DNA of 64,000 nt from Onchidella celtica. Lineage: Eukaryota; Mollusca; Gastropoda; Systellommatophora; Onchidiidae. The notes under the pieces are model-generated. The model worked only from the letters and a program-made list of their open reading frames with translations, did no database searches and was not told the DNA's origin. A program made the position numbers and the translations under genes. Within the stretch, counting starts at the first letter, position 1, and each line of letters opens with the position of its first letter. Below are positions 13,929 to 52,100 of the stretch, one piece after another. The stretch is taken from NCBI GenBank assembly GCA_963931925.1, contig OZ007570.1:43298187-43362186 (forward strand), given 5' to 3'.

Positions 13929-14133
13929 TTAAATAGTAGGTTTAACCTTAGTATCAGGTTTGACTTTGTAAAACTTATCAAATTCCTCTACTTCTTTCTT
14001 GATCTCTTGCTCAGAATATGGAGGAGGGTGAAGGATTGGGTGAGCCTTGGGGAAATCCTCTGGGTGCTTGTGTAGTTCCGCATCAACGAACTTTGCATGA
14101 TATTTCTTGCGGTCCTCATCAGACATTACATAA
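13929..14133 (-). CDS. Terminal coding exon, NDUFC2-like C-terminus (partial gene)
   Basis: Minus-strand open frame of 67 codons ending in TAA at 13929-13931. A good 3' splice site (pyrimidine tract, then AACAG) lies immediately upstream at 14134-14136, so translation enters in phase from an earlier exon; the in-frame ATG at 14126 need not be the start. The product contains ELHKHPEDFP preceded by a charged DEDRKKYHAKF stretch. NDUFC2 of mitochondrial complex I ends with a comparable segment (human ...MKLHPEDFPEED...) after its membrane helices. A longer proline/charged tail follows here. No membrane-spanning upstream exon was found between 14134 and the MPC1 stop, so the gene is incomplete by eye and the identification is tentative. 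It could also be an unrelated small mitochondrial protein. Confidence 0.45.
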
Positions 14134-16723: not shown

Positions 16724-16860
16724 TCACTGATAATTTACAAATCTGGCACCCTGAGTCAGTTGAGCTACTTCATTTGTTATGTGGCAAGACATGAGCAACA
16801 GATTTCGAGGGATGACCTTCCATGCAAAACGCATGAAGAGCATAGAATAAATGGATAATG
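16724..16860 (-). CDS. MPC1: MPC1 exon 5 (terminal)
   Basis: Acceptor TTTTCAG. It encodes [38 protein letters not shown] and ARFVNYQ, then TGA. The second membrane segment and the TNEVAQL motif match MPC1. Confidence 0.95.
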
Positions 16861-19800
16861 CTGAAAATAAAATCCAAGTAACAGGCTATTAACAACAGTG
16901 GATAAATCAAAACAGAAACAATGAAAACACTTTTGTGAGAAGTACAAAAACTGTTCACTGGTCATTAATGCGGACTACATTTGCAACCACCAACAATTTT
17001 ACCTGATGTTCAAATTGTATGTGCAATAATGTTAGGAACTATGGACTCTTGTGGCTTTAAGTTCACTGGAAAAGAAACACAGTTATTCAGGCCTGTGTAC
17101 ACCAAATACTTCTCCTTGGCTGAGATCAAATTTAACCCAAACTCAGCTTATAAAGTAATTGGTTATTCATTTACTCCACAAACTCAAAATGACAATTTGT
17201 CCTATTACTAGAAGTAATAATCAAAACAAACAAGACAGAAAAATTTATCACCAAGAAATTTACACAGTGATTCTGAGGTGATATAAAGGTCCACAGATTC
17301 ACTTACCTAGTGTCATTTTCCCACTAATAATCTCTGGATTCTTTTGAAGATCACCAATTGCAGCTAATGGCAAGCCCCAGTTTGCAACTGAAACAAAAAA
17401 AAAGTCATGCAGATGAATATGAAGATTTTATAACTGTGCCTATTGTAACGTGAAAATAAATAGAGATCCACCATTTCTTATCTCTGCAAACTCTGAACTC
17501 TGATAGCTGACATTTTTTGTTTTTGTGTCGATCAGTTTTCAGATACCAGTATACATATGATACATGTATAACCCATGCCAACACCCAGGCCAACGACTTT
17601 GTGTGGTACAGCAATATCTAGGGGGACATATAACTGACCATTTCACTGGTTAGGAAACAAGCTTGAAGCTGAGTGGATGGGTGGAATTGAGAGGCTCAAA
17701 AGTTTTGCTTTAAAAAAAAATGTTAGTGTTTTACTCTTTGAACACTCTCGTATTTTGTTTCTGAAAAGATTGAATATCATATGCTCCTTCATATTTCGCA
17801 TTACTGCAATCGTCAACTTATAACAAGTAAGGGGCGTTTTCAAATAAAAAAAACAAACTTATTAATTAAATATTTATAAGCAATGTAGTTATTTGACCCA
17901 TGACTGCTCGTGAACATCAAGCTGTCGCTGGCCAAGGGCTTTGTAATCTCTGCCTTGTAATCCCACCTCACCATATACCTTAATTTCCTTAAGTAAGCAA
18001 TTCATGAACTTTATGAAGTGTTCCTTGGTTCCTGCAAAACACGATGGTAGATACTCTCCTTTCTAGTGAATGGTTCTGATATGGTTTCTTTGACTATATT
18101 GGGATTTTTGATATTCGAAATACGTGTATTAAAATAAGAAGAAAAAAAAGAAAAGAAAACTGAAACTCCAAAATACATCTCATCCCAAGGGAAAGAGATG
18201 ATGGTAAAGGACATGTGAATCTCTTCACACAGAACTTGATGCGTCAGCAATAATGGCAAGTGTGTAACATTTTAGGTTTGCCCATTTAGTGGTGCAAGGG
18301 CAAGATCTTTACCCATACACTAGACATGCATACATGTTATGCAATCAGCGTTAGCTTAAAACAACATTTAAGAAACAATCACTTTTTAACGATATTTAGA
18401 AGCTTCTCCTGAAACCTTATAAGGGATATTACCTTCAGCATCATGAAAATAAATCTTTACACAACAGGCTTATTGCTTGTCACAATCAATATTAATATAG
18501 AATGAATGCACAGCAGAAGTGCTGCAAATTGGACAACATTTTTGCATTTTGCATTCAGCATGACCTGATCATGCAGAAGGGGACTGCTTTTCTGGCCCTC
18601 CACGGACCAAGGTTAAGAACTTTTGAAATTCAAAATCAATTTCACAAGCCTAGAGATAACAATATTTATGCAACAAAATCTTACCTGGACCCCAAAAATG
18701 CTGATGAAAGAAGAAAAGAAATAAATTATTAAAAATGGCGCACTTTTGTTTCACAATAATGACTATAAAACATCTTAAACTAATGGCATTGAAACATACT
18801 CAAAACTACAAAACTATCCACATGGCTTGTTATCATAAATTAGAAAAGACCGTGCTAAATTGCTACTTTTTTGGTCGCTCCAACCAAACAAGTTTCTTCA
18901 CTTATATTGTGCAGCAAGTCCTTAATGACATTAGGGGTGATATTCACAACTGCTGCACTGACCATAGCATATAAATATGGATTTCACGTGACAAAACTAT
19001 TTCATCTTCCCTGTCTCCTCAATTTTTCATAAAACAGCCTCTTCATACTACAGGGTGACCCCCAAAAAAGACAGAACCCACAAATCTGAGGAAGTTTTTG
19101 GTATCACTGGGATGACACAGAGGGATAGATCGAGATGAGCAGTGGTTCCAGCAAGACGGGGCCACCCCCCACACATCAAATGACTCCCTAGCCTGGATGA
19201 GAGAACGATTTCAGGAAAGACTGATCAGCCAGAAGTGTGACGTTGAGTGGGCACCACATTCAACGAACTTGAACCCCCCAGTTTTTCGTCTGTGGGGGTA
19301 TCTCAAGGATAATGTGTCTGAGAACAACCCTCAACGATTGGTGAATGATCACAGCAAAAATCAGAGAAATCCCCAAAGAGGAATGTGTTCAAGTAATTGA
19401 CAATATTGCACGACCTAGTTTGCCTCCAACGCCATTTGGAACATATTTTGGAAAGACTACATGACTTTCATGCATCAAAGCAACCAAGATAGCTGAAACT
19501 TTGAAGAATAAATGTACACAGAATGAAGTTTAAGTCCAGCAAATTTCGAGAAATTTGCTGGACTTTTGTAGGATTTAATGAAATTTTTATGGGTTCTGTT
19601 TTTTTTGGGACACCCTGTAAAGGAATTTAAAGTGTTTAATTTAATTCCTTTACAGGTCACTAAGTATCAAAATGATATTACTGAATCAAAAGCTGTGCTG
19701 AAATTAACAATAGTAATTGAGGGAAATGTATATTATATGTAACTGGATACTGAGCTTTTATGTAATGAAAAAAATGTTTCCGTAAGCAATGAATTGCACA

Positions 19801-22800
19801 CTTGATTTGTTTAACTCACTGATTACAGTGATCGCATGTTATGCAATCGTCGCTCCTTTATTTCTGACAAGATCACACCAACTGCGATCCCAACTTTGGA
19901 GTTTTGAATCTCGCTATGATGCACCCCCTGTGCGATAAATGTACCGGAAACAGTTAGCCTCTTTTAGGGTAGCCACACAAAGGCCACCGAATTCGGTCAC
20001 CAAGCCACTAGGCGCTTTAGGTGAGAAGAATTGCACTATATAATTTCAACAACTGCACACAGAGCCCACCTAGATTCGGTCCGTTTATATAGTGCCTTTG
20101 TGTGGCTACCCTTAGCCCTGTCAATTGACACCAGAATCATCTCACTAGTGCCAAAGGAAATTTTATATGGCCCTTTTAGTAATCCGGTCTATTTGAGTTC
20201 CAAGATGGCAGCCCCCAAGCCTCACCATAGGCATAAACACAAATATTGGTTGACAAATGCATTGCACTGGTTGCAGATAGACATACACTTTATGAATTCA
20301 CCTCTAGATGACTGTTTGTTCCTGTTGTGTACTTAAGCAAATTTCTTTGTATTATGTTACTATTGATTCCTTCAGGTGCCATTACTCATCAGCATTCTTT
20401 GTTATATTCAGCTGATGGAAAAAAAAATTTCTCTTTAATTTCAAGCACACACACACTCTAATATTGGAGTGAATATTCAAAACACTAACAAACACAGAAG
20501 AAAAAGGTTAATTTCATTGTTGTAACTTGTATCTTAACTCTTTGTGTGCCGATCACCGGTATATCGGTTCTTCAACTGATCACATTTGTGCCAATCACCG
20601 ATGCATTGGTGCACAAGAATGCTAGACTATTTTGTTTCAGGAAGAAAGAAAGTCGACTTTCTATCACACATGTTGCTGTAGTTAGTCTTCATTCATCTGC
20701 CCTGTATTTTCTTCCTGTATTGGCAAACGTGGAAAAATTCATGGCACACAAAGAGTTAAACAGTTTTGCTGTTAATAGAGTTACGAATTTTTTAAAATGC
20801 CATTGAAAACCTCAGTACCCGGAGAATACCAAGCCCCCAAAAAACCCCTTAGTCAGTTAGTTAAAAAGAATGTGGCCCACTTTTTTTCCAAGTGTACCAA
20901 AGTTCAGTTTTTAATCCACAGCTCACTTTGTGATGAAGCTGGAAAAGATTAGAAACATGGTTCATTTCTCCAACATGAAAAATGCTCAAAATATTATAAT
21001 CTGTTTTCCAAATGAGTTCTGTATGTCTCAACCAACCGGTCAAGATACCTTATACCTATCCCCAACAATGTTCTTATCCACATACCTCAACCACCTTGTC
21101 AATAACCCTAAACCTAATCTTATCCCTAAAACCTGCTCCTTATCCTTTCAACCAGTAATTAAAGACTTAGGTTAGGAAAAAAGACAGGGTCAGGGACAGT
21201 TTAAGGTATCTTGGCTGGACAGTTTTGTGTGTCCTAACCACTTTAAATTCTTATAATTCTTTACAGACAGACTCAATATTTTTGTTGTGTTTTCTGGTGG
21301 AAAGGGTAAAGGGTAAGAAATTAAGATTATCTTGAGGTTAGAGATAAGGACAATATTAGAGACAGGGTAAGGGTTAGTGGTTGACTGGGTGGTCGGGACA
21401 GATGGAACTCCTCCCTGATTTTCAGACCCTATCTTCAATAACACAAAAGTTTAATTCTGTTACATCAAAATACAAACATATATGGTTCTTCATGATCTGA
21501 AATTATAGCTGACAGAATCATTCTAACATATTTCACTGTTACTTAGTGTTAGAGAAAAAAGTGTTATAAGGTACACATGCTTCATAAGCATAAGACAGCT
21601 AAACAGTTTCCTAGGACAGAGAAAATTCTGAAAATGCATGTACTTATTAACATAAGAAGAAAAACAAACTTACTGTGCTGTTGAGGCAAGTCAGTCATGG
21701 TGGGCCAAGGAGACAGTGACATGAAAAGAGGAAGAAGTGAAGACTTTATTACAAGTATGTTTTTGGAAGCAATAGTACCCCCAAGGGATATTAATTAGGT
21801 GTTTATTACACTTAAGAAAAGCAAATGACACACTCAGGCAAATGCTGGTCACAGTGTATTTGTTTTGAAATCCATTTCACAGATATTTCTTCGGGGGGAT
21901 TACTGAAATCCTTCATAGATTTTCTGTGGATTTTAACCCTCGTCCCGTGTTGAGTGAACTTGTCCACATAACGCCTCGTATGGGGATAGTCAGTGGCCAG
22001 TCAGCCTATCGTTCGTCTGTTGCCAATAACCTCGGCGGTTGGGTCAATTGGGTCTTTTTGAAACGTGTATCGTGTTAACTTTAGAACACAATAACAACAA
22101 TACTGGTGGATAAAATAGTAAGTGACCCCTGTGATATTTGGAAAAAGTACTTGAGATGAGATGCAATAAGTTCTATTGTTTAGTAGATGGCCCACAGTCA
22201 AGAATTTTCTGCATTTACGTCCTTTAACACATGTTTTATCCTTTTCCCAAGACCTCGGCGATTTTTTTTTTTTTTGCCCCTAATTCAGGTCATTCAGTTG
22301 AACAAATTATTTTTTAAGCCAGGCACTTAATGTATCAGGACATTGCCTTCTCCCTCCTCTACTATGTGAAGGTTCAACTTCCATGATGTTTGTTTTCTTA
22401 GCATACCTTTAGCAAGAGATTTCATTTCCAGCTCATAGAGTACATGTATATGTACTGAATTAAGCAGTTTAATCAAAGCAACAGAATATCCCTGTAATTA
22501 CCACATCATATTTAAAGACAACGGCCAACAACAGAGTCGGTCATTTTCTCCCAGTTTTAACTGATGAAAGACCTACCAATAAACACCCTTATACACAGCA
22601 TTTCCCCTAGTATTACACCAGAATTCATTATTACAGACATACAATGGCTTCTCAAATACACAGATGGTCCACTTCTTCTCATTTCACATGTATACAACAA
22701 CCAGCATCAACATCTAAAGTTTCCCTAAGATTTTCCCCAGTTCGAACTTAGACCATCAGCACTATTACGTACATGAGTATGACACATAGTTACGAATACA

Positions 22801-25800
22801 ATATGTAGTTGCATTTTATAAAGTTAACGTAATCAGACAATACCCTTTCGTGAGATGTAGTAGGGGTGACAGGATACATAAACAAGCGAAACTAGTGTGA
22901 AAAAAAAATAATTGGCGCAGCAACCGAATAAACAAAACACGAGGAGCTGCGTTGCTATACAATAAATTGGCCTCCTGCAGAACTTGGTTTGCAAAATGTA
23001 GGTCAAAATAATGCTCTCGCAGTCGCATGACTCATCTGGTGTGCAAGGAGGCCAATATAGAACGGTTTCCTGCAGGACAAGGGTTAAGAATATTTTGTCA
23101 AAGCTGATACATGCAGTTCAGTAGCAATTTGATAAGGATTTGGGTGGCTGTTGTTAGAGGACCATGGTAAATAACGAAGTGTTTATCTGCTGATACTGTC
23201 GAATAAAATTTCCCCTAGGATTTTTTTTATCCACCATCATAAATTCTGTATTTGAGAACGATTTCCCCGGATTCAAACCTTTCTCCATCTTCCTCCCTTG
23301 TTCCGTCCATCGCGATCAACATTCGCATTGCGCACGGGTTGAAAACGATGGCATGATTGAAATTGGAGACTGAGGTTGTTCTGAATAAAAATGGAAGTTT
23401 ATTTATTAACATTAAACATGTATATGAAGGTTCATGTCTTATCTATAGTTATGGGTTTCTTGGTTTAGTCATGCATTAATAAGAATTTCCTCACAATTAC
23501 TTGGGGTTCTCAGTAGCGCAGTGGTTAGCATCTTTGCCTGTCAGTCAGGGGGGCTGTGGTTTGATTCTCAATAGGGCAGTTTTTTTGTTGTTTTTTTAAC
23601 CCTCAGGCTACGCAGGGCGCCGAATGTCGGTATTGACTTTCCAAGCATTCACTCCGCACAGGCGGGTTTAGTCGGCAAGGTCAAGCTGACCGTGCCAGCT
23701 GGATTTTCACCCGCCAGGTACCTTTTTGAGACATAACCAGCGTCTTATTGTTCACTGTATCTCTTCTAAATCAAAGGCATTGTGACATGGACATGTTAAC
23801 CAGTGAACCACTGGTCGGAATCACAAAGACTAAGCTTTCAAAGGCTCTCCCCACACTATCAAAAGATTTAACAGTTACATCGACATGCGAACTGTTGCTC
23901 TATAAATTTGCAATATTATCTCATTTTCTCACAAGCTGACCACCATCTTTAGAGTTTAGTTGTCTGTATCTAAGAACAAATCAGAAACAAGCTCTGAAAT
24001 GATCTTTGCCCCAAATGCCCGTGTCAATCAGGATGAAACCATTGTGTAGGGCTTGGGAGGGTGTGGCTAGTTATCATGCTTCGTTCTCACAAAAACTACA
24101 GCTGTCAGTTTGGAATCATAAGTCAGATCATTAAGTTAGAGACTGACAGACTAAGGTTTTGCTGGTTAATTCATTATCAAGTGTGATAAGGCATAGCAGC
24201 GGATGTTTTCACACCGATCAAATACAAACCAAACCACGTGGACAGCGGTAGTGTGGCCATCGTCACGGCAAGGGTCAGTGACCCTAGATAAGGTTCTCCA
24301 TGAGTAAGGTCACTGACCGGACAGTGGGCTTTATTAACTAATTAAGCCGTCGCACGCAGGGTGAGCATTAATATTGTCTTTTTATTGGGAATCAATCTTT
24401 TGTTTTTATCCAGGAACAGGGAATAAATCCTGTTTTTCTGTTTGTTTTTTTGTATCTTCACCTGTCAATAACGGGACAGTGATTCGATTCTCAGCAGCGC
24501 AAGTTTTTTTCTCCTTTTCCTATTTTTATCAGCAAATCAATCTGTTTGGTAATTGTTTTTTTAAATCCAACAACATTTGGGAATAAATCCAGTTTTGTTT
24601 TTTCTTGTAATTAGTCAACACCAATACCTGTGGATAAACCCAAGCTTTATCCGCCGATATTGTTGGCGGCCTTGGATCTGCCAATCGTCTTGCCGGATAA
24701 ACCTTGGCAGTATCCGCCAATAATGTTGGCGGATAAACCTTGGCAGTATCTGTCGATAATGTTGGCGGATAAACCCGAAAATATCTGCCGATAATGTCTG
24801 CCTGCCCAGGCTGCATCTTCTGATAGTGTATAAATCTATAGATACTCTCTGGTAATGGTATCTGCCAATAATGTTGGCGGATAAACCTGGGCAGTATCTG
24901 CCATCATCATTGGTGGATAAACCTGGGCAGTATCCGCCAACATTATCTGAGGATAAACCTGGGCAGTATCCGCCAATAATGTTGGTGGACAATGGTAGCC
25001 ATTTTACATCTAGTTACAGAGTTGAGCAGTGAACTTTGTAATTAGACTATGGTTCTCTAACACCAGCCAACCTGGGCAGCCAACAAATGCAGTGTGTATC
25101 AGTTCTGTCACAATGAGGACTTTGACCCTTACACTACAGTTTCATGTTTATCAAATGGCCCAGAATTAAAATGTGGTAGACATCTAGATCTAGATCTAAA
25201 AAGTGATAAAAATGCATCATATGAATTTAACTATTTAAACAATAACAGTACAGGCCAACCGTATTTTTTGTCTCACTGACATTTTGTAGTTACTCCTGGA
25301 GAAAAACTGAAGTGTAATTGCTGATTCTCTTAAACATTTTTTTTCCTCTGAATCGAACTCCACTACCAGTACCCTTGGCCTATTTCTCTTGAATTGATGA
25401 ATTGCAGACTGCTTTCCTCCTATCAAACACCTATGCTGATGGCTACTGCTGTCTAATAAAAACATTTCAATAGGCGAGTGGCAGACAACCTATGCCGAAG
25501 ATTACCAAAATCTGTGCTTATGAGGGCGGCACATAGTTCAGGTTATTCATGAGACTAGATAATATGTGAGTGTGCTTGAGAAAACCCACAATATGTCGAC
25601 AGAGCTGATTTTGAGAAAAATGGCGTTGAAGTGAAAATGATTGGCCAAGTAATATTGGCGTGATTGATGTTAGGAGACCGTAGTCTAATAACTAAGCCGT
25701 TTTAGAGATCATAGTGAGTAGTAGTGTTCACTGCTCATCTACAGGTTACACAGTAACATGCCACGGCCCCCTAAACAACAGCCAAGTTGGAAGTTTGTGT

Positions 25801-26141
25801 CGGACCCATATTTTCACTTCAAAGCCGTTTTTCTCAAAATCAGCTCTGCCGACTTATTGTGGGTTTTCTCATGCACCCTCACATATAGATCTAGATCTAG
25901 ATCTAGATCTAGATATCTAGAATCTAGATTAGATCTAGATCTACTTCTACTCACCCATCAGATACTATTTCTAGAAAATCCTGCACTGAATTGTAAGTTC
26001 CCAGGTCAAGCTAGAAGTAAAAAAAAAAAAAAAATTGTGTCTTTCTAGAAAAATACAAAAATCACATTTATGACCTGAACCTTACCTACATATCCAGTCT
26101 CTGAATTCTTTCGTTCTAACATACTTCAAGAGGGCCGCCAT
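16724..26141 (-). CDS. MPC1: Mitochondrial pyruvate carrier subunit 1 (five coding exons)
   Basis: MPC1 pairs with MPC2 in the inner mitochondrial membrane to import pyruvate. Five minus-strand exons join in frame to a 97-residue protein: 26086-26141, 21674-21677, 18685-18700, 17307-17387 and 16724-16860. The product begins [16 protein letters not shown], passes through the family signature STHFWGPVANWGLP, then [26 protein letters not shown] and [13 protein letters not shown], and stops at 16724-16726. Length and order fit the family (human about 109 residues). Every junction has GT/AG ends. The 4-nt second exon is the weakest part: without it, exon 1 joins exon 3 out of frame and the ST of the signature is lost. 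Introns hold a mariner relic, MITEs, TTAA elements and a minisatellite. CSTF2 starts 1.9 kb away on the other strand. Confidence 0.9.
17307..17387 (-). CDS. MPC1: MPC1 exon 4
   Basis: 81 nt encoding [14 protein letters not shown]...[11 protein letters not shown]. Acceptor TTTCAG and donor GTAAGT. This is the most conserved part of the family and the surest exon. Confidence 0.95.
18685..18700 (-). CDS. MPC1: MPC1 exon 3, 16-nt microexon
   Basis: CATTTTTGGGGTCCAG, encoding HFWGP plus one base, lies between a pyrimidine-rich acceptor ending ATCAG and the donor GTAAGA. Confidence 0.85.
19051..19617 (+). mobile_element. Tc1/mariner relic, 567 bp
   Basis: Imperfect inverted ends (CAGGGTGACCCCCAAAAAA and, in reverse, CAGGGTGTCCCAAAAAA) are flanked by TA on both sides (19049-19050 and 19618-19619). 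Only the 3' part of a transposase is left inside, so it is an internal-deletion copy. Confidence 0.85.
19137..19400 (+). pseudogene. Mariner-type transposase C-terminal fragment
   Basis: The frame contains [12 protein letters not shown], the second catalytic Asp region of IS630/Tc1/mariner transposases, then [20 protein letters not shown]. In active relatives the latter reads HSPDLNPxDF, so the third acidic residue is replaced here by Asn. The N-terminal half (DNA binding and first Asp) is missing and the frame shifts out of homology near its end. Non-functional. Confidence 0.8.
19615..19655. repeat. 41-bp hairpin beside the mariner relic
   Basis: CTGTAAAGGAATT and its complement AATTCCTTTACAG flank an AT-rich loop. 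It overlaps the right terminus of the mariner relic and may be a repair scar. Confidence 0.6.
19967..20111. mobile_element. Harbinger-type MITE, 145 bp
   Basis: Inverted ends GGGTAGCCACACAAAGGC, with TTA directly outside both (19964-19966 and 20112-20114). The 3-bp TWA duplication and GGG start fit PIF/Harbinger. Non-coding. Confidence 0.85.
20538..20755. mobile_element. TTAA-flanked MITE, 218 bp
   Basis: TTAA at 20534-20537 and 20756-20759 with 13-bp perfect inverted ends CTCTTTGTGTGCC. Two subterminal repeats follow the left end (GATCACCGGTATATCGG and AATCACCGATGCATTGG), each near-palindromic. Confidence 0.8.
21674..21677 (-). CDS. MPC1: MPC1 exon 2, candidate 4-nt microexon
   Basis: On the minus strand the sequence reads CAACAG, CACA, GTAAGT: a good acceptor, four bases and a consensus donor. 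CACA completes AG|C ACA, giving Ser-Thr of the conserved STHFWGP signature, and restores phase 0 for the next exon. Neither longer exons nor direct joining of exons 1 and 3 does this. Confidence 0.65.
21937..23083. mobile_element. TTAA-flanked element, 1147 bp
   Basis: TTAA at 21933-21936 and 23084-23087. Ends CCCTCGTCCCGTG and, in reverse, CCCTTGTCCTGCA. No transposase domain recognised inside. piggyBac-like by its ends only. Confidence 0.6.
23505..23580 (+). repeat. tRNA-derived SINE head
   Basis: TAGCGCAGTGGTTAGCATC (A-box-like) followed after about 35 bp by TGTGGTTTGATTCTC (B-box-like). The sequence does not close an acceptor stem, so it is a SINE rather than a tRNA gene. Confidence 0.5.
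23600..24367 (+). mobile_element. TTAA-flanked element, 768 bp (family copy A)
   Basis: TTAA at 23596-23599 and 24368-24371. The same family is present at 59077-59836 (reverse) and 7640-8288 (old). Shared blocks include AGGCATTGTGACATGGACATG, TTAACCAGTGAACCACTGGT and CACAAAGACTAAGCTT. Ends are weakly inverted around CTCACCCTGC. Non-coding. Confidence 0.75.
24635..24990. repeat. 36-bp minisatellite with inverted core
   Basis: About eight diverged units built on GGATAAACCTTGGCAGTATC followed by CGCCAATAATGTTGGC. Each unit contains an inverted GCCAA/TTGGC pair. The array is interrupted at about 24790-24865. A minus-strand frame through it reads as a 12-residue repeat and is not a gene. Confidence 0.85.
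25565..25883. mobile_element. MITE with long inverted ends (second copy)
   Basis: Ends TGTGAGTGTGCTTGAGAAAA and its complement. Inverted arms run about 55 bp through GTCGACAGAGCTGATTTTGA. Same family as 14484-15016 but without the internal duplication. Confidence 0.8.
25884..25951. repeat. (AGATCT)n microsatellite
   Basis: Tandem AGATCT/CTAGAT hexamers with a few slips, directly adjoining the right end of the MITE. Confidence 0.9.
26086..26141 (-). CDS. MPC1: MPC1 exon 1
   Basis: ATG at 26139-26141 in the context CAAGATGG. It encodes 18 residues ending ...EFRDWIC plus AG, followed by the donor GTAAGG (26080-26085). Confidence 0.9.
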
Positions 26142-37100: not shown

Positions 37101-40100
37101 ACAATTACAAAGTCCTCAATTATTATGTTCACAATCGTTTCATAGATTTTTCTATTTAATAATAATAATAATGGATGGCATTTATATAGCGCATATCCAT
37201 TACAAAAATGCTCTATGCGCTTTACAGAAACATGTCAAAAAATACATGGGTAAACTCACACACACAACCCACATTGATACACACATAATAATAATAATAA
37301 TAGATAGCTTTTACATAGACTAGAAACTCTCATACAAATGACATTTTAACATCCTTTTAAACTGTGACAATACTTGCGAACTGCGGACATCTAAAGGAAT
37401 CTCATTCCACACCCTGGGCCCAACATGGCTGAAAGCCCTTTCACCAAAACTTTTTAGGTTCACTACGGGTACTTTTAGTCTAAGGTTGTCAGAAGATGAT
37501 CTTAATGCTCTTGCAGGGCGATGTAGTTCTATAAGTTCTGAAATATACTCTGGCGACATGTTGTTGACACCTTTATAACAAAATAAAGCCAACTTATATT
37601 TTATTCGCTGCTCAATAGGTAGCCAGTGGAGCTCCTTAAATATTGGTGTTATGTGATCTATCCTTTTTCTTCTTGTTATTAGTCTTGCAGCATTATTTTG
37701 GATTAACTGAAGCTTATTGATTTTACTTTTTGGAAGACCACTTAGCAGTATGTTACAATAGTCCAGCCTAGAGAGAAACAGCAATGTTACAAGCTGTTTT
37801 GTTACTTCAGTAGTTAGGCAGTGCCGTATACTGCTGATTTTCCGTAACTGGAAATTAAGATTCTTACACAGCTGACTAATAAATGGTGACATTGACATCT
37901 CTGCATCTAAGATTGTGCCCAGATCTTTTACTTTACTTGTCATTTTAATAAGATGGCCATTTACATTGAGATCTGGTGGATTGATTTTTTGTTTTGGATT
38001 CGTTATGAGCATAACTTCTGTTTTCTCATCATTTAGTTTTAGCTTATTATCATCCATCCATTTCTTAACTTCTTGTATGCAATGCTCCATTGTTTTTATC
38101 GTATCATCTAGGTTTTCAAGATCACATGCTTTATATATTTGGCTATCATCAGCGTATTGGTGGTATTGAAGATCATATTTTCTGAAAATATCAGCAAGAG
38201 GTTGGGTGTATAATGTGAAAAGAATTGGGCCCAAAACAGAACCTTGAGGTACCCCAAAATTGAGTGTTTGGACATTAGAACAACTATCATTGACTCTCAC
38301 ACATTGTTTTCTATTTGAAAGATAGGACTGAAACCATGACAGTGCATTTCCTGCAATACCAAAGGTCTTTTCTAGACGATGTAATAGAATGTTATGATCT
38401 AAAGTATCAAAGGCAGCAGACAAGTCCAGAAGTACAAGAATACATACTCTTTTGTCATCGAGCTCTAGAAGAATATCATTCACTACTCTGAGGATAGCAG
38501 TTTCAGTACTGTGGCCCTTTTTGTATGCCGACTGGAATATCTCATTCAAATTATTTATTTCAATGTGCTCCATGATTTGCCTCAACGCTGATTTTTCAAG
38601 GATCTTAGACATAATTGGTAAGTTTGACACAGGCCTATAATTTTTCGCATTGTTTACGTCGAGCCCAGCTTTTTTAGTCAAAGGTTTTACAATTGCCTGT
38701 TTGAAAGAATCTGGTACAACACCAGTTCTCAGAGAAACATTGATTACATGAGTAATGGATGGCAATAACTCATCAAGATACAATTTCACAAATGTCATCG
38801 GAAGTGGGTCTAATTCACATGATTTGGATGGTGAGTTTTTGATAAGATCTTTAATCTCAGTCTCAGCCAACATCTGGAAATCAGTCAATTTCCTGCCTTC
38901 AAAAACACATAGTTCAGGTAATAAATTGGCAACATTGTTAAAATTAGATCTGATACGTTCAATTTTTTCATAAAAATACAATGAAAACATTTCACATAAG
39001 TCTTTATGGTCACCCTGTGGAAAAACCGAACTTGTTTCTTTCCCCAAAAGTTTGTCAGAGAGCAGAAAAAGATCTCTACATGTTTTAACACTGCTAAATT
39101 TTTGGATAAAATAACCCCGTTTGAGTTTCTGAATCAATTTTACAACATTGTTTTTACTTTCTTTGAAAATGTCACTGTGAACTTGCAATTCCGATTTCCT
39201 CCATCGCCGTTCATCTTGGCGTCTTTTACGTTTTAATTCTTTAATTTCAAGGGCGAACCATGGTGACCATGGTCGATGTGATACTGTCCTTGGTGTTACC
39301 GGAGCATGTTGGTCTAATGTTGTTTTTAGAGCAACATTGAAGTTTTCCATTGTCATGTTGTTTGCTGCCTGATTCAAGTTTTTTTTTAGATCATGTCTGA
39401 AATCCTTCTCGTTGATGTTCTTTAAGTTCCTGGATTCAAACGTTTTCTTTATCGTCAGAGGTTTAGGAAAATTAGTGTCAATAGTTATCAAGAAATGATC
39501 TGAAATAGCTTTATCAAGAATGTTGACACTTAAAATGTTCATTTCTGATAATGGTGCAATGACATAGTCCAAAATATGGTTGGATTTATGTGTAGCTTGA
39601 TTAACATGTTGAATAACATCATGCTCTTCTAACAGTTCTTTAAAACGAAGAACATCTAGAGATGTAGTTGAATCGAAATGTAAATTGAAATCTCCCGTTA
39701 TAATGAATTTTTTTGTTTTCGATCTAAGATGGTATAGGAGTTGTTGCATCTCGGCCAGAAATTGTGAGATGGTACATGTATTTTTCTTAGATGGCGGAGG
39801 TCTGTAAATGCAAACAACATAAAACAGTACGTTTTGCATTGGTGACAACGTAAGAAAAGCTGCCTCAAAACTTTCAAATTTTGTTTCGAGTGATGGTAGA
39901 TTCCTGAATGCATTTGCAGATTTGATGTCTTGCCGATATATAAAAGCAATGCCTCCTCCCCTTCGACCCTCTCTTGGGAATGATTTACATGTAAAACCAG
40001 GTGGTGACAGTTCAACAAGTATAGGGTCATCTCCTGTCTCCTGCAACCATGATTCAGTTATACAAAGTATGTCCGTGTTCATATCTTCCACTAGGCTACA

Positions 40101-43100
40101 CACTTCTTCACGTTTATTTCGACAGGACTGTGCATTCAGGCAAGAAATTCTAAGATTGGTGACATATTCTTGAATCATGTTAGAGCAGTCTATGTATATC
40201 AAGTTGTTATTGTTGATGACAGGCAATGGTGATTTTTTACAGTTTACAGCTCTATTTTTATGGACTGACTCATGGTGTTGGATACACACTTGTATTTTTC
40301 TCTGTTTTCTTCTTCCCTTTCTAGCTGTTCTTCGGGTCTTTTTATGTGTAACACGGGTGGTGTCTATGCGTGCTATCTTGAGTCTAGAACAAATTGTTTT
40401 GATAGCCGTGTCTAGATCTATTTTCTTGCAGCAAGTTGCTCCGATATTTATTATCTTTTCATATGCTTTTTATTAGGTTAGGGTTAGAGTTAGGTTAGCC
40501 CCAGACAAAAAAAAGTGTGAGACCATTATAAAAACGGGTTTAGAACATGTACAAATTTATTGATTAGGATTGAAGGTATTGAAAAATTGGGAAAGGGTAA
40601 GTGCATTCGCTCCATTTGCTCCAGAGTCATGCACTTCTTGTACGTCTTTTGCTTGATAAACTGGGATACCCTCAGGCTGAACAGTGAAGTATGGTGTTGA
40701 GCAGCAACTTGTGGATGGGGTCGATTGGATCGTGGCTTCATTAATTTTAACAGAATCTCTGTGGAGTTGCCCCACACCGAGCTTCGAATAGAACGTCATT
40801 AATGGCCTTTGTCGCAAATAACTCTTGTTGAGCATCCAGCTGACTCAGCTCATAAGCCCAGGCCTTGGCCCGAGCTGAGTGGCGATCATCTTGTTCAGAC
40901 AATTTTGCTTTTGCCATGATCAGCAACTCATTCCTCTCACTCTCAGGCATTTTGTTCAATTTTCTTTTTCTGGTCGGAGGCAGCGACTTTGTCGGCGTGG
41001 GTGTTGGCAGCGAAGTAACTGAAACAAAGGAACTGTCAGTCCCTTCGATTACAACGTCATCAGCATTACTTTCTTCCGGTTCTTGGTCCTCAATCTGAAA
41101 CAGAATGAAATATGTTTTGCTTAATATCTTAACTACATACATGCATGCATTTCACGTTTTTATGAACAATTATTTTTTCCCAGATGCCAAACACACCAGA
41201 CAAATGGAATCGGACAAGCGAGGAATTCATGTCGACCTGGAACTTCCCCCACTGCCTAGGTGCAATAGATGGCAAACATATCGCCATCAGGAAACCAGTG
41301 GGAACAGGATCATACTTCTTTAACTACAAGAAGTTTTTCAGCATCGTTTTGATGGCTGTTGTTAATGCGAACTACGAGTTCATAATGACAGATGTTGGCG
41401 TAAACGGACGGGTTTCGGATGGAGGAGTAATTGCGGTAACAGAAATTGGTCGACGGATGGAACTAGCTGAGTTGAACCTCCCTGAACCAAAACCCATAGT
41501 TCAGAACGAAAAAAAAATGCCATTTTTTTTTTTTTGTCGCAGATGACGCATTTGCTATGTCAGAAAACCTATTGAAGCCGTACGGAGGGGATAAGTTAGA
41601 CCATGACCAAAGAGTGTTCAATTATCGCCTGAGTAGGGCGAGGCGTGTGTCTGAAAATGCTTTTTGGATTCTGTCTGCCAGATTTGGTGTATTTCGGAGT
41701 CCTATACAGCTTTCACCGGAAAAAGCCACGACAATAACACTAGCCTGCTGCTATCTGCATAATTTTCTTCGGAAAAAGTCAAAGAACTACTTGAGACCCG
41801 GAAGTGTGGACTGGGAAGATGCGAATCACGAGGTCCATCTGGCGGAATGGCGTGATCATCAAAATCAGCTGGAGCGGTTGGGGGCATGCAGAAGTAGAAA
41901 CATTGGAGCAGGGGCACGTACCGTAAGAGATTCTTTCCGAGAATACTTTTGCACGCAAGGGCGCGTAAATTGGCAAGAGGAAAGAATTGCATAAACATTT
42001 CATTTTCATGCTTTGTAACAATAACTTTAAAATGCCTGATTTTTTTTTTGTATCTTTTTCATTATTAAATCATTGGCTTCTTTTAGGGCCATATTGCTTC
42101 AAAAGAATTTGAATTGATAATTATTCGAATTATCCGATTTCATGTGTACTCTACTCACACCAGGGATATTTCACTCATTAACATTAAAATTACTCTGACA
42201 CTGGGCCAACCAGCTGCAGCAATAACCCCACAATGTTGAAGGACAAGGTACTGCAGTACTGATTTTTAAGACTTGGTTTTGATATAAATCAGATTTGAAC
42301 CTGACATTCCAACTAAGAGCGTGTTGATTTGTTAACGACAAAATCAACAAATGAACAGGTTTTCTTAAAACTAAAAAAAAAAGAATAATTTAAAAAATGA
42401 ACAATTACATAGCGCCACCCCCAGCAAATGTTCAAACCAGGCTCTGGGCGCTTTACAAAGCCATAACACCAGAGGGAGAAACAGAAACATTGAACACTGA
42501 CACGTCACATTTGGCTGTTAGGATCTAGATTTCTAATTACCTGGAGCACGACTTGTTTACCTCCAGCATCACTTTGCACCAGTTGTGGCATTGGTAAGGA
42601 GGTCCTGGATTGTGCTGGTGTCTCCTGATCCACAAGGAACATCATTGCCGACATGAACCATGCCTGTGATTCATATAAGTTGTCCAGTCCAGCGCCAGAC
42701 TTGGCACTGTGGTTAATTTTCCGAAGCTCCGTTCTGAAGCCCGTCCGCAGTGTATTTAGTTTTTTCTTGAGCTCCTCCAGGGTCCCTTCAGGAAAGTATT
42801 CCTTGTACTTTTTTAGAAGGACTTGATAGTCTTCTATCTTCCTTTGCCTGTTGTGGTACTCCTCCGACTTAACCTTCCACAAAGAAGGCAAAGTTCGATA
42901 AACCTGGAGAACCTCTAGCATAAACTTCTTTTCTGACTCCTTTCTAGACATTGTTGTTGTAATCCTAGAGATAAACTAAGTTGAAAAAGAAGAAAACAAA
43001 TGATCTATCGATACATAGGTTGGGTTTTCAGTTTGTTTTGAACAACGAGGAGGTTACTTTCGAAATGATATTTGATCAAAAAATTTGACGGGAGCCTACA

Positions 43101-46100
43101 AACGAAACAAAAATTTGACGACTCGTCAAAAAATATCAACCGGAGTTGATCCATCAAATATTTATTACAATTTTTTTTTTGACGTCAAATTGCCCTACGC
43201 ACCATCAAATTTCGCATCAAATATTTGAGTCAAATAATTTGACGGCTAATTTGATCGTGTGTAGGGGCCTTTAGTTATGCACAATAGGGAGATGGCTGCT
43301 CAAAAATAGGGAGATTTCATTAAAAAGAGGGAGATGCTAGAAATGTGCACCATCGGCAAAGTAAACTAGTGAAATGTCAACCAAAATGTATCATCGTATA
43401 ATATGATTCATTATTTATGTGTTTGTGATTTGGACTGAATCCCTACGCTATTCATAGGATACTGTGTTTGTGATTTAGACTGAATCCCTCTGCTATGTAT
43501 AGGAGACTGTGTTTGTGATTTGGACTGAATCCCTCTGCTATCTATAGGATACTGTATCCTATGAATAGCAGAGGGATACAGTCCAAAGCCAGTGTCCATT
43601 ACTTGCAGTGACAAGTAAAAAAAAAATCAGAACACTATCTGCAATAACAGAATACAGATTCATTTATTGTCCTCTTCTTGGGCACAAGGTCACAATGCAT
43701 CAAATATCATTTCTGCCTCCGTGGTTCACGTTGATATCTTTCTTGCAGAACAAGCAAAACGTGTACGACTTTGATTTTGAAGATTGGCGAAATGCCGGGT
43801 AATCTGACTTCCATTCGGCCTTCCATTTTGTGGAGTACTTTACTCTCTTTCTGCTTCCAACGTTCGTCGACTTTCTTTTGTCATCCTCTGTGTCGGATTC
43901 GGAGTCGGTTCCACGATTCTTTCTTTTTCTGATCGACGCCATAATTCGGTAAACCGGAAGCAGGCCTCGATCTGAATAGTTTGGGCAGAGTTACTTCCTT
44001 TCCATAGCAACCAGTTTGTTTATGAAGCACCGATTGTAAGGTACTGCCGGATCGCCACCTGAGCGGCGTGCAGCTCGTGGAATAGTGCGACTGCGCTCCA
44101 CTCAGGCGGCGTGCAGTGTTCTAAAGGTTCTAATTTCATTTTCGGGAGATCGGTGAAAAAAATATCGGGAGATTTATGATGCTAGCGGGAGTTTGGGAGA
44201 TGGGGTCTAAAATCGGGAGTCTCCCGCTCAAATCGGGAGGGTAAACAGGTCTGCTAATTATGGGATTCATCTTTACTTTAGTGCATACCATTACCAAGCA
44301 AAATGAACAATGGGAACATCCAAAATGCAAAACAATGTGTGATGTTTATGATAAGACCATTTATGAATTTTGTCACCATTGTTAATGCATTGGTTTTAAC
44401 ATGCAGGTTAGTGTATGACAGAGAAACAGGAAAACCAAAAGGATATGGCTTTTGTGAGTATCAAGATGTGGAAACTGCTCAGAGTGCGATGCGAAACCTA
44501 AATAACTACGACTTCAATGGGAGACCATTACGAGTAGGTGTTGCTGCAGGAGAACAAAGTAAAGATGAAGGAAAAGCTATGCAGCAAGCTCTTGGAGGAC
44601 AGATTGTGGAGGTTCACATACTTCACTTTGTATTTTAATATGTCAAGTTCCTACTCTGCTATTCTATATTCACTCACAGTGATGAAATCCTTGCTTCTTC
44701 TGATACTTTTGTCAAAGGTGCAGTCTTATGCTGTGTATTTTCATTCAGTATGAGTTTAACTTGATGGCTGACATCAGAATCATTATAGTTAAATATTAAA
44801 TGCGCAGGGCTTTAACATGCAAAGAGTGTGCAGTAAGACCAAAGGTGCTAAATGCAATAAGATGAGGCAGTCTAAGAATAAACAAACAATTTGCAAAAAC
44901 AGAATAAGTTTAAGAAACGAGTAAGGTGAAGCAGATCCATTATAATCACCTAGAACTGAAACTACAAAATATTTATCGTGGGCAGCGCCGGGTACCTCAG
45001 TTAGTATTAAATATAAGGGATCTTTAGTATAATTATTACTCAGACTGCATAGTGTATGCTAAGGATCAGTAAAGTTATTTGAAGTTTCACTTGTATTTTG
45101 TCACCCTTTAAATTCAAAATGCTAGCTCATAACCAATTTTGAGTTAAGCGATGTGTGTTCCGTGGACAGCATACCTATAGGTTTCAAAATTGCATTCCTT
45201 CATTACAGTCTCCATACGGAGAGCCTGTTGAACCCGAAAAGGCCCCAGAAGCAATCTCCAAAGCTGTGGCTAGTCTACCACCAGAACAGATGTTTGAACT
45301 GATGAAGCAAATGAAGGTATCTGATGATTATGTTTTCTTTAACAAGCTTAAAAGCCCGACTGTGGGGCTCAGTGTTTTTACATGTGGGGGTATACCCTGT
45401 GCTTTTTTTTTTAGTTTTGTTTATAGAGATGCTCGAATGCTTTGTACCTGATGAGTAGCAGGGTTCACACAGGCCCTTGGAAGCCCTTAAAGTTTTGAAG
45501 TGCTTAATTTTCATAAAAAAGTCCTTAAATTTTGAAAATGATGTCAGAGTCCTTAAAAAGACCTTAAAATTTGTGTTTCAGTGGACACATTTGAGATCCA
45601 AATCTTCCAAATTGCACACTGGATAATTGGTACTTTGAAATGACTGAACTTTTCAGGGTGAATTTACTATGATTGAACTCTGGATACAGAAATATCCCAT
45701 TTCAATGAGTGCTGCAAACAACTTGCATAGTTGTAATATTTCTTGGTCACAGGCACAGAGGTCCTTAATTTGTTTACTGTGAGTCCTTGGGAAGTCCTTA
45801 AAATTAGTTTTGAAGATTGTATGAACCCTGGAGTAGATCTAGATAGTTCTTGCTGTGGATCTGGCAGTTTTGAAAGCAGTAGGATTAAATAGTAATGTTA
45901 ATTAACTTGACACAAAGAACCTTTGAAAGAGTATCTGCCAGGACTGGACTCCATACACAAATATAGTATGCTGTATTAACTCATTAGCTTTGATGCAAGG
46001 AACTTTTAAAGAAACATGTCTGTCAGAAGGACTGAGCTGTATATTATATTTATAATATTGAGTCTTGGTGCAAGGAACCTTGAATCTGTCATGAGGATTG

Positions 46101-49100
46101 AACTACATTTATGTTAATAGGCTTGAATAAGGCACTTTTACCAGAGCATCTGTCAGGGAACTGAATTGCTTTATGGATTTGAGATAACTGAACTTTTCAA
46201 TGTGGATTTACTATGTTTGAACTCTAGATACAAAAACAGGCGGTTTCTTTGAGTTCTGCATACTGCTTTGCAATGTTTGTTCGTCACAGGTCCTTAATAT
46301 TTTGTTTTTGTGAGTCCTTAAACTATTGAATTTGTGTGAACCCTGTTAACTCACTGATGCCTGTTCCCGCACAAGTTGCGGGATACCTAAATCGACGCAT
46401 AAGCCTAATCCCACACCTCCTGCGGGGTACATAAATAAAATTTCTAACCCCTGCACTGTTCCTGCAACACTTACGGGATTGGTTCTTTGCGGCAGTTTAA
46501 CATCTTGACTTGTTTCATTGAAAGTTTCACCGGGTTCAGATGGCAACTTTTTTTTAAACGATTTTTTAAAAACTATCACTCTATGCCGGGACGAAATAAG
46601 AACTTCTGTTGGTTGCTCAATCTGTCACACCTGATCGCTAGATCTAGTCAAGACAATGGCTTCAAAATGCAAGAAAACGAACATTTTCCAGCTTTTTGAA
46701 GACACCAGTGATGAATCTGAGGTAGATGTAGCCTATAATTCAGATCTAGATCCTGAATTCGTGCCTGGGATTGGGAAGGGAAATTCTGACTCAGATTCTA
46801 GATCTAGCCCTCCCAGTACCAGCGATCGTGCTAAGGCTAAGGCCAGTGCACTGAGTAAGGGCAAGGGGGAAGGCAAAGCCAGTAGCAGGTCTAGTTCTTG
46901 TTGACTAAGGTGAATAATAACATTACTTTCAAAGACTTGTGACACTTTCATACAATTTTTTTGACATTTTTATTAGGTCATCAGTACAATACACAAAGGC
47001 CAGAAATTTTTGCGAAACAAAGAAACTTGCCAAATTTTGAAAATTCATGAAAAAAAAACTATCTGAATAAATTTATTCAAGTTTTGTTTTTTGCATTGTC
47101 CAATTTAAAACCTGTTATGTATCAAAATATGGAATGGATTGGTGAATAAATGTGGTTGTGGGAATTTTTTGAAATACCCCCCCAAAACCCCTGGTCTTTA
47201 AGAGTTGTTCCGCCGTGGCGGGCTGGTCTTCAGTGAGTTAAAAACAATAGGTAATTGGTAAAGTGGACAAAAATCTGAACAAAAGTAAATAAATAAGTAA
47301 ATTTTCTCTAATTTTCGTGCATGTGAGTAGACCTGGAGTTTAACATTTTAGCCCTGGAAAAAACCAGTAAAATTATTCTCAAGGAAGTGCCAGGCAGTCA
47401 ACAACTCAAAGCAAACTCAAGAAAATTGAAAAACAAAACCAATTTAAAAAATCCAAACATCTGTGCACCCTCCATGGTATTTGAAACCTGCATGCAAAAT
47501 TTGGGGATTTTGGTGGCCTAATAAAAAAGCCTTTTGCGTTGAAAGGTGAAGAATTCGTGTAATATGCATCATGGCTGTTCTTCGCCGTGCTTTTAGTTTC
47601 TTGCCGGGTGGTTGAGTCACTGGCGGTCAAAAGGTCAGTCACTTCCTGCTGCCCCCACGCCTGCCGATACCGTCGGCTTACCGCTAATTAGTACTTTTTT
47701 AAACAGACAAGACAGAACATTGTGCATGCTTCTAATAAAGTGAACATCATAAAGTCAAATTCATTAACTTTTCTCTTGAATAATTTTTAAATATTTGACA
47801 TCGATCTCTAAAGAATAAAAAGAAAAGAGTGGTGTAAAATCCACTGTTTTCGCTGAACATGTGGATCATTAAATAATTATTTTTAGCCGTATAATGCCGG
47901 AGATTGCCATGAAATTAATATTTGTGTGGCGCTCCACGAAAACCCATCAGATGATGCACAGGCTGTTTTTGAGATACAGGCGTGCAAGGTAATTTTTCTT
48001 CGTTTCTCCGGTTACTACACCTGACACTTTAAACGGCCATATATCTCAAAAAGTGTTTGAGATATTGACTTCAAATAAAAAGCAAAATACACAGAAAATG
48101 GCCCTCTTTCATATTGATTGTGTATCTCAAACTGCTCAGTCCAACAAATTTCTACTACTTTTGTCTGTGTTTTGTCCATGGATGTGTCACAGGTGGATTG
48201 TTGGTTCAGTAATGCGAAAGATTGTGATGTGTGTTTTATTTGGCGTGGATTGAGCAATGGCTGGCAGAGTGAAGCTAATTTCGGCTGATGTTGACTGTGT
48301 ATTGTCTGTAAACAGTCTGACTGTATTGTATATACTTGTATTGGGCGGGTGCTCTTACTTGTACTGTCAGAGTGGTATGTTTCAGTGTGTTGGCGTTTGT
48401 GTTTTGTGTGAACTCTGGACTGACCTGCTTGGTGGATTGCTTAACTGATCCAAGACTTGTTAGACATGTTGTACAGTATTTATTACAAATTGGATGGTAA
48501 GGCCGTAATCACAAATTCTGTCCACATTTTTTTTTGAGTTCTCTCTGATCTGTCTTGCTGCGTGTTCTCCTCCTCTGTTTTTCAAATTGTTCAGTCTTTT
48601 GTGATGCTTAAAATACAGTTACTTTGAATGAGTCTCCTCTTTGTTTGAAGTCAGGTTAATAATAAAAACAGTAAAATGTCAGATTTAAAGGCGGCACAAA
48701 AGAGCTTCGGCCTGTTTCTATTTGTCTCTTGTTTTGTCAACATTCTTTCACCGCATAATCTGCACGGTTCATCCAAAAATACCATGTGTTCTTCCTTACA
48801 ATGCTCAATAGTTCCATAACAATACGGTAAATTTGTAGAGAATATGGAGAAAATCTTCTCATAACTCAGCTACTAATGGTGAGTGTGATGGGAAACTTTC
48901 ACACAGTAAATGTAACTGAATGCTTCATTTGAATGTAATTTTATTAATTTTGTGGACATCATTACCGAGATTTGGATTGATTAATGTGAACAATACGTTA
49001 ATGTTTAAAGAAAACACACGTTTGTAAAACATCTTTTCTGAAAGAACTAAAACAAATACACCAGAACAATTTGTACCATCAGACTCAGAAAAAGCAGAAC

Positions 49101-52100
49101 AAACATATTGATCACAATACAATGTTGACTTTAGCACAGATAGTAAAATAATGGGGTGAAAGAACATGATATCAAAGCTAGACCATTCGGATAGTGTGGG
49201 AGGCTGATGCGAGCGCATGCCACCCAGGGGAATCCCCTGCACCTGTCAGGTTACCGAGATTTATTAGCCTGGCCACAGCAAACTAAACGCATGCTCTCAG
49301 GCCATTTTGAATAGCCATGGCATGTAGAACTAATATGATCATGGAAATGTGAAATTCTGTTAACCAAGAAGGTGGCAGTGTAGTCCTGTTTTGATGCAGT
49401 TTTTCTTTTTCTTTTAATCTCATAGGGATGCTATTATCTCGTCATAAAGTAGGTAAACCTTCATTATTGTTCTTTTTTTTTTCTTAGGCATAAAGCCATC
49501 AAGAGCAAGATTGAACATAGAATACTTAATTGTTGCTTTTGCATGTACCCATTTCTCACTGATCTCACATTTTGCCCATTTTTTATTTCCAGCTTTGTAT
49601 ACAGAATAACCCAAATGAAGCAAGAAATATGCTACTTCAGAATCCACAGTTGGCATATGCCCTGTTGCAAGCTCAGATTGTGATGAAAATTGTGGATCCC
49701 CAAGTGGCTATGGTAGGGTTTCCTTTTAAACATGGGGGCTGTCAATGAATTAAAACTTTGTTTGTTGTGTGTTTTATCTTGTTTGATAGAATAGAGAGAA
49801 ATGGGGTCAATGTCAACTCTGATTACTAAAGGATTGTGTAACAGTTGATGCAAATTTCAGCACGTTATGATGGGGAGAATCAGATGAACTAATCGTCTAC
49901 CCTTTGAAAAACGAAACTGTCTCGAACTGTTGTAGAAATAAATAACAGGATCCGATGAACACTTAATACTAACGTTTAATAACTGTAAACAAGAGCTGAT
50001 ATCCACAAGTTACTTACACCTATCAGGGAAGGCACTTACACTTCTACTACAACTGGATTTACACCTACGATTTGCACCTTACGATTTTCACCCACGATTT
50101 GCACACGTCCTGCTCGCCTGGCCCTCCTTATATATATTCTGTCTAGGAACGTTCAGGAAGCGGCTTAACCGCCCCATAAGCACGAGACAGACCTAGATCG
50201 TTCGGGACACATACAAGCCACCCAATCGTACACAGACACGTCATAGAATTACATCACTCAAGGTCAACCTAGCGTAATCTCTGACACTGCCGTACCTTCT
50301 AGATTTTCTAGACATTCTACAGTGAAACAAACAAACCACATCAAAGAAAAATACCGGCCTTGCTGGCGAGAGGGGGGAGGAAGGTCGCCGAGTGAGACTC
50401 GCCAAGCGGGGGGTGAGAAAATATGGATCGTCCTACTAGTGGGACGCAACACAACTCCCCAATTTAAGTTGAACATTCTTCAACTATCTATATCACAAAG
50501 CGTCTACACTATCATAAAATACTTCTCATCTCCAATCTTACAATAGACATTGCTAATACTGTACTAGGTGTCTTCCCAATATCCTAAGTACAATACAATA
50601 ACCATATTATCTTTATAACACTAATACAATCTCATTACAATATCATTACAGTACCATTACAAAACCATGGTCAACAGTAGACCTACTATTATAACCAATA
50701 CACTACCATAACTATGGTGAAACGATGGTCAATGATACTATTAAAAATCATACAATGGTGAAACGATGGCCATCCAATACACAATGCTTCGTGCACGAAA
50801 CATAGCACATAACGTTGTACACAACGATGGTTGTCTTAAATACCAAATGCATAAATGCATAAACTCATAGATACAATGGCAAAAATACCAACACATATCG
50901 ACCACTGATCAGGGTCTAACTTCATCATATCAGATCAAACGAAGCAATACCAATACCGCCTAAGCTTAGGCCACTCGTAAATTACATCAATGCAACATAC
51001 AAAATCACTGCTTGCCCGCAGTTCCCATTTGGGTTACAGTCTTCAAAAATTACATTGTCCCACTGGTAACAAATAATGAAAACATCAACATATGACTAAT
51101 ACATAGTGGCTCTCTGCCGGCCAATAATTCAATACTCATTCAGATATGCCATTACAGTACAATACAGTCATCCCAGAAACGTATCTAACAGGCAAAACTC
51201 TGGGTTACAATACATCTCACTGAACTTGTACTATTCAAAACACTCTACTTAGGAAGTCGGCGCCGACATTTTCCTTGCCTTTGACATACCTAATCCTGAA
51301 TCGATATGACTGTAAAAATAGACTCCATCGTAATAGCTTTGGGCTGTCAAATCTGGCGGAATTCAAATACTCTAATGACCTATGGTCAGTCTGGAGCACA
51401 AACTCCTTACCATACAAATACAAAGTAAACTTCTTTACCGCCCAAACGATGGCTAGGCATTCTTGCTCTGAGACTGAATATTTCGTCTCACGAGGCAATA
51501 GCTTACGACTGGCATATGCCACAGGATATAACTTTCCCTCATATTCCTGCATAAGAGCAGCACCCAACCCGCGGTCTGATGCATCAGTTGCTAAGACAAA
51601 TTCTTTTGAAAAATCTGGCAGACATAACACGGGTTTGGAAACAATGGCATTCTTCAGAGAAGTGTACGCTTTCTCCTGCACTTCTTCCCACTGAACTACA
51701 TTGGGCTGACCCTTTCTAAGCAAATCAGACAGTGGTGCTGCAATCGCTGCAAAGTTAGGTACAAATTCTTGGTAATATCCCACCAGTCCTAAAAATGCTT
51801 TCACTTCCTTTTTAGTGGTGGGTCTGGGTGCATCCCGCACCTTACACACATTTTCTTCTAACAAGCCAATCATACCCTTTCCCACTGAGTGTCCAACAAA
51901 GTCCACTTCAGACGTTCCAATCAGGCACTTGGATGGTCTTGCAGTTAATCCAGCCTGGTCCATGCTCTGCAGCAATTCCTTGAGAGCCTTCACATGCTCG
52001 TCGAATGTCTCTGTATGGATCAGCAGGTCGTCCACATACGCTGTCACATTGTTCAGTCCCTGGATCAATGGCTTCACGATCCTGTTCAGTGTAGCTCCTG

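Follow-up and report, generated by a model that had tools for sequence, protein, structure and literature searches.

MPC1 (mitochondrial pyruvate carrier 1) encodes a protein that imports pyruvate into mitochondria. What connects the first coding exon of MPC1 in Onchidella celtica to the conserved STHFWGP signature of its product? In the window, by which we mean the whole 64,000-nt stretch of DNA analysed here, a full MPC1 frame is readable on the minus strand, and its first exon ends in the middle of a codon. A preliminary description of the locus proposed that this exon is followed by a 4-nt exon, CACA, and then by one of 16 nt. We find that this arrangement gives a complete in-frame coding sequence, and we propose that CACA is very probably genuine: a coding microexon of 4 nt, included constitutively and orthologous to exon 2 (TACG) of human MPC1; its transcription and constitutive inclusion we infer.

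The MPC1 frame and its two very short exons

The coding sequence comprises six exons (Table 1), extends over 26141-13929 and adds up to 495 nt, or 164 residues. Spliced in silico, it contains a single stop, at its end. The introns measure 4408, 2973, 1297, 446 and 2594 nt in that order, and all five begin with GT and end with AG. The exon coordinates of the preliminary description (26086, 21677-21674, 18700-18685 and 17387) proved correct when re-read on the minus strand; the exons at 16860-16728 and 14133-13929, which were absent from it, have been added here to complete the frame. The 164-residue product matches the Pfam family MPC (PF03650) with an E value of 5.3e-33. Among PDB chains it matches those of MPC1 (E 1.9e-41; 62 of 91 aligned residues identical in the best chain) over those of MPC2 (E 2.4e-06 or weaker), and by sequence comparison the gene is MPC1. 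The last coding exon (13929-14133, minus strand) extends the C terminus by about 65 residues, which are unaligned to human MPC1.

Table 1. Features of the MPC1 locus, in positions of the window
Feature	Position	Strand	Description
MPC1 exon 1, coding part	26086..26141	-	56 nt; 18 residues + AG; phase 2 end; donor gtaagg
MPC1 microexon CACA	21674..21677	-	4 nt; completes Ser19 (AG|C) and encodes Thr20 (ACA); acceptor caacag, donor gtaagt
MPC1 16-nt exon CATTTTTGGGGTCCAG	18685..18700	-	His-Phe-Trp-Gly-Pro + G; acceptor tttcatcag, donor gtaaga; strong proximal pyrimidine tract
MPC1 81-nt exon	17307..17387	-	27 residues + G
MPC1 133-nt exon	16728..16860	-	20 residues...VNY + CA; donor gtgagt
MPC1 last coding exon	13929..14133	-	205 nt including TAA; C-terminal extension
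Displaced pyrimidine tract	21720..21744	-	-67 to -43 from CACA; 21/25 pyrimidines
AG-free 64 bases	21680..21743	-	Between previous AG (-68) and acceptor AG (-2); holds candidate branch points and two TGTC

Both CACA and the 16-nt exon are needed for the ...DWICSTHFWGPVANWG... of the product. Lying between phase 2 and phase 0, CACA completes a Ser codon and encodes the Thr of STHFWGP, as human exon 2 does. Joining exon 1 directly to the 16-nt exon shifts the frame into stops, as the preliminary description had held and as splicing in silico confirmed. Together the two short exons contribute 20 nt, and by simple arithmetic the frame is also broken if both are dropped.

The window contains no N, and the long MPC1 introns hold transposon-like sequence, including a stretch that by eye resembles a mariner-type transposase remnant, in the intron after CACA (19116-19400, plus strand). 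A similar mariner-looking frame at 57998-58561 (minus strand) gave no Pfam match. Elsewhere in the window lies an LTR-retrotransposon-like element (51235-55612, minus strand). Its SCAN, zinc knuckle and integrase domains share one frame, upstream of another that carries reverse transcriptase and RNase H; the order of integrase before reverse transcriptase and the SCAN domain presumably recall Gmr1-type Gypsy elements. A LINE-type open frame of 1049 aa with endonuclease and reverse transcriptase domains occupies 37320-40469 (minus strand). Two overlapping frames at 41166-41994 (plus strand) resemble DDE_Tnp_4 (Harbinger-like) transposases, Pfam having been run, and having matched, on 41166-41543 only. 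The window yielded no tRNA and no Rfam match at gathering scores.

Human exon 2 and the sequence upstream of CACA

Exon 2 of human MPC1 is a constitutively spliced 4-bp microexon, TACG, flanked by introns of over 12 kb and over 3 kb (Koh, Shin and Kim 2023, PMC9929638). With its adjacent intron, it is described as highly conserved across species (PMC9929638, Figure S1). Whether other animals share a 4-nt exon in MPC1 had been raised as a question in the preliminary description; the human gene has one, and mouse cell lines are included in the published work (PMC9929638). We place the human exon at the same position and in the same phase as CACA because TACG before His gives Ser-Thr only if it is divided as ..T-ACG, the frame being deduced from the protein.

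The human exon has been dissected in minigenes, which also showed that exons of 2, 1 and even 0 bp still splice; the earlier view of 4 nt as near the lower limit for splicing was therefore too strong. When the exon is placed in foreign introns, 67 nt of upstream and 6 nt of downstream sequence are enough for inclusion, and with 46 nt upstream there is a marked loss (PMC9929638). The pyrimidine tract needed in minigenes lies at -67 to -43, the major branch points are at -68 and -64 (-63 in the paper's Discussion), and a TGTCTG direct repeat, whose role the authors leave open, is found downstream of the tract and before the acceptor (PMC9929638).

The sequence upstream of CACA has a displaced tract in the same interval, with 21 of 25 pyrimidines as against 22 of 25 in human MPC1, and each of the windows that begin at -66 and at -65 here holds 22 of 25. 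Of seven acceptors used as controls, four belong to MPC1 and three to a plus-strand CSTF2-like gene, where they were placed by motif; the seven have 10, 13, 19, 8, 13, 11 and 17 pyrimidines in the same 25 positions. The CSTF2-like gene itself is represented by exons in 44408-49700, with an RRM match and with hinge-like exons assigned by motif. Immediately before CACA the tract is weak (12/21; controls 11-19/21, one control having 11). The acceptor of the 16-nt exon, unlike that of CACA, has a classic, strong proximal tract (19/21).

The acceptor AG of CACA lies 66 nt from the AG before it, compared with 42, 46, 25, 60, 51, 28 and 72 nt for the controls. We place little weight on this AG-free stretch because one of the seven controls exceeds 66 nt and another has 60; it is compatible with the human signal, weakly suggestive of it, and not distinctive. 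Between 26085 and 13929, 17 of 679 AG-to-AG gaps are of at least 66 nt, and 2 of 676 AGs combine a gap of at least 66 nt with at least 21/25 pyrimidines at -67 to -43, a joint condition that was chosen after the human paper. Matches to YTNAY place candidate branch points, by motif, at the A residues at -61, -45 and -14. The full TGTCTG is absent upstream of CACA, where only TGTC is found, at -44 and -38; the two copies fit the human pattern and hint weakly at it, TGTC being present at one of the seven controls as well. We also considered RNA structure as a signal at CACA and rejected it, its stability being no greater than that of shuffles (z 0.48).

The weak proximal tract, together with the early stops that follow from skipping CACA, might be taken to mean that the exon is real and its inclusion regulated, with a frame-shifting skip that lowers MPC1 through nonsense-mediated decay. 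Inclusion of the human exon is described as not wholly complete everywhere: in several other human and mouse lines exon 2 is spliced 'almost completely' (PMC9929638). In human 786-O cells, however, the skipped message is undetectable, even with cycloheximide (PMC9929638). We consider regulated inclusion improbable and retain a constitutive CACA exon as the preferred reading.

CACA among the candidate exons of the span

How readily could another short exon in the same span supply Ser-Thr, CACA being a chance match? Exon 1 and the 16-nt exon are separated by a span of 7385 nt (trimmed by a few bases at its ends for scoring), which contains 16 AG-NNNN-GT arrangements. On generic splice-site matrices, which ignore coding and were not trained on Onchidella celtica, CACA has the top score (5.4) with no coding condition imposed, the next arrangement scoring -1.1, or 6.5 bits lower. 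The GTAAGT donor agrees with the intronic consensus at every base. Only two of the 16 encode Ser-Thr, namely CACA and a CACG at 18854, whose very poor sites score -19.2 against the 5.4 of CACA.

The coding match alone is worth little, because when the intron span is shuffled 2000 times with its dinucleotides preserved, some Ser-Thr candidate (AG-[CT]ACN-GT) arises in 45% of the shuffles. A Ser-Thr candidate scoring at least as high as CACA appears in 0.4% of the same number of shuffles, and one with a GTRAGT donor in 0.6%; the preliminary estimate of 1-2% for a chance occurrence was thus of the right order. With coding ignored, any 4-mer scoring at least as high as CACA is found in 7.1% of 2000 such shuffles.

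Exons of other lengths must also be weighed. The span contains 15 in-frame candidates of 4 nt (CACA included) and 24 of 1 nt, and among in-frame exons of 1, 4, 7 and so on up to 31 nt, CACA ranks fifth by splice-site score. The four that outscore it (28, 19, 25 and 25 nt) were rejected: they would replace the Thr of STHFWGP and add 5-8 residues foreign to the family, absent from the PDB MPC1 chains. With a single T at 21810 as a 1-nt exon, the frame and the Ser would be retained but the Thr lost. Against all of these stands the human gene, which has its 4-bp exon at exactly the position of CACA (PMC9929638), and we regard another source of Ser-Thr as highly improbable. That the locus is a decaying or mis-assembled copy with an intact exon elsewhere, as the transposon-like sequence in the long introns might suggest, is scarcely credible for a gene with six intact coding exons, GT-AG at five introns, a complete 164-residue frame and no N in the window.

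Splice-site quality, frame and protein conservation all favour the model originally put forward for this locus, with a 4-nt and then a 16-nt exon, as the best reading; by splice sites, CACA is the best of the 16 arrangements.

A proposed mechanism, possible age and known systems

In the conserved STHFWGP, CACA would contribute the final base for Ser and the whole codon for Thr, and its omission would leave the message out of frame. The architecture is shared with human MPC1 and therefore suggests a mechanism of the human type. On the pattern of the human experiments, both the pyrimidine tract and the branch point would be displaced some 45-70 nt upstream, and a branch point upstream of CACA is presumably used. 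The displacement would leave room for the U2/U2AF complex, and for U1 at the strong GTAAGT donor, to bind together in spite of the 4-nt exon; the pair of sites could then be recognised as an 'exon island', after which both introns would be removed. The GTAAGT donor may also compensate for the microexon ending in A instead of G.

The 16-nt exon seems to be a difference from the human gene, whose exon 3 is apparently longer. Five exons are given for human MPC1 (Oncotarget 2016, PMC5346765), versus six coding exons in Onchidella. The part of human exon 3 in the minigene is 49 nt by its coordinates, which misfit the stated intron part, the printed length being garbled (PMC9929638). From the five human exons and this 49-nt part, human exon 3 is apparently unsplit after 16 nt, and the phase 1 intron at 18684-17388 (Pro|Val) probably has no counterpart in human MPC1. 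The 16-nt exon would thus be a second, ordinary-looking microexon, arising from this additional intron.

How old is the arrangement? We lean slightly towards the view that the 4-nt exon and its displaced-tract signal date to an ancestor shared with vertebrates, an obligatory exon of 4 nt having persisted for over 500 million years, and that the 16-nt exon joined it in this lineage. The date depends on the lineage being invertebrate, with which the C-terminal extension, the divergence of MPC1 and the repeats agree. If so, splicing must find two consecutive microexons, each frame-breaking and together 20 nt long, within intron sequence totalling about 8.7 kb. Constitutive 4-nt exons that break the frame are known in few cases, and one of these would then appear to be no vertebrate peculiarity; the displaced pyrimidine tract, necessary in human minigenes, may have been conserved along with it. 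Comparison with the Onchidella gene is a natural way to learn which upstream bases are important. Where animal MPC1 gene models were made with no provision for microexons, they may omit the Ser-Thr pair or be interrupted here.

Among the literature matches listed, which were mostly open-access, none names an invertebrate MPC1 microexon or a 16-nt MPC1 exon, and MPC1 is absent from the titles and abstract openings of the matches listed on invertebrate microexons. In viral and genome contig collections, in which no animal genomes were found, the spliced protein gave 2 and 51 pattern stretches, respectively, and no relative, and a degenerate DNA pattern for FWGPVANWG had no match in either.

CACA can be set beside three known systems. 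The first is that of exons whose branch points are distant and which have AG exclusion zones (Gooding et al. 2006, PMC1431707). Like these, CACA is preceded at some distance by its tract and likely branch point, and the intervening sequence lacks AG; unlike them, its AG-to-AG distance of 66 nt falls short of their 100-nt class and within the range of our controls. Similarly, CACA resembles the neuronal microexons of SRRM3/4 in being very short and in having a TGC upstream, here at -11 to -9. A TGC motif upstream is a feature of those exons, which are mostly frame-preserving and alternative. In contrast, CACA is 4 nt long and obligatory for the frame.

The closest counterpart is exon 2 of human MPC1. 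CACA shares with it the gene, the 4-nt length, the Ser|Thr codons, the phases and the long flanking introns, in addition to the tract at -67 to -43 and a strong donor of the GTAAG type (gtaagt here and, by deduction, guaaga in human). The two differ in the sequence of the microexon itself (CACA versus TACG), in the TGTCTG repeat, which is matched here only in part by the two TGTC, and in their branch points, which are mapped in human MPC1 and are motif candidates here. The 4-nt exon of Onchidella MPC1 is not new in kind; it is a relative of a tested human oddity, followed here by a second tiny exon of 16 nt.
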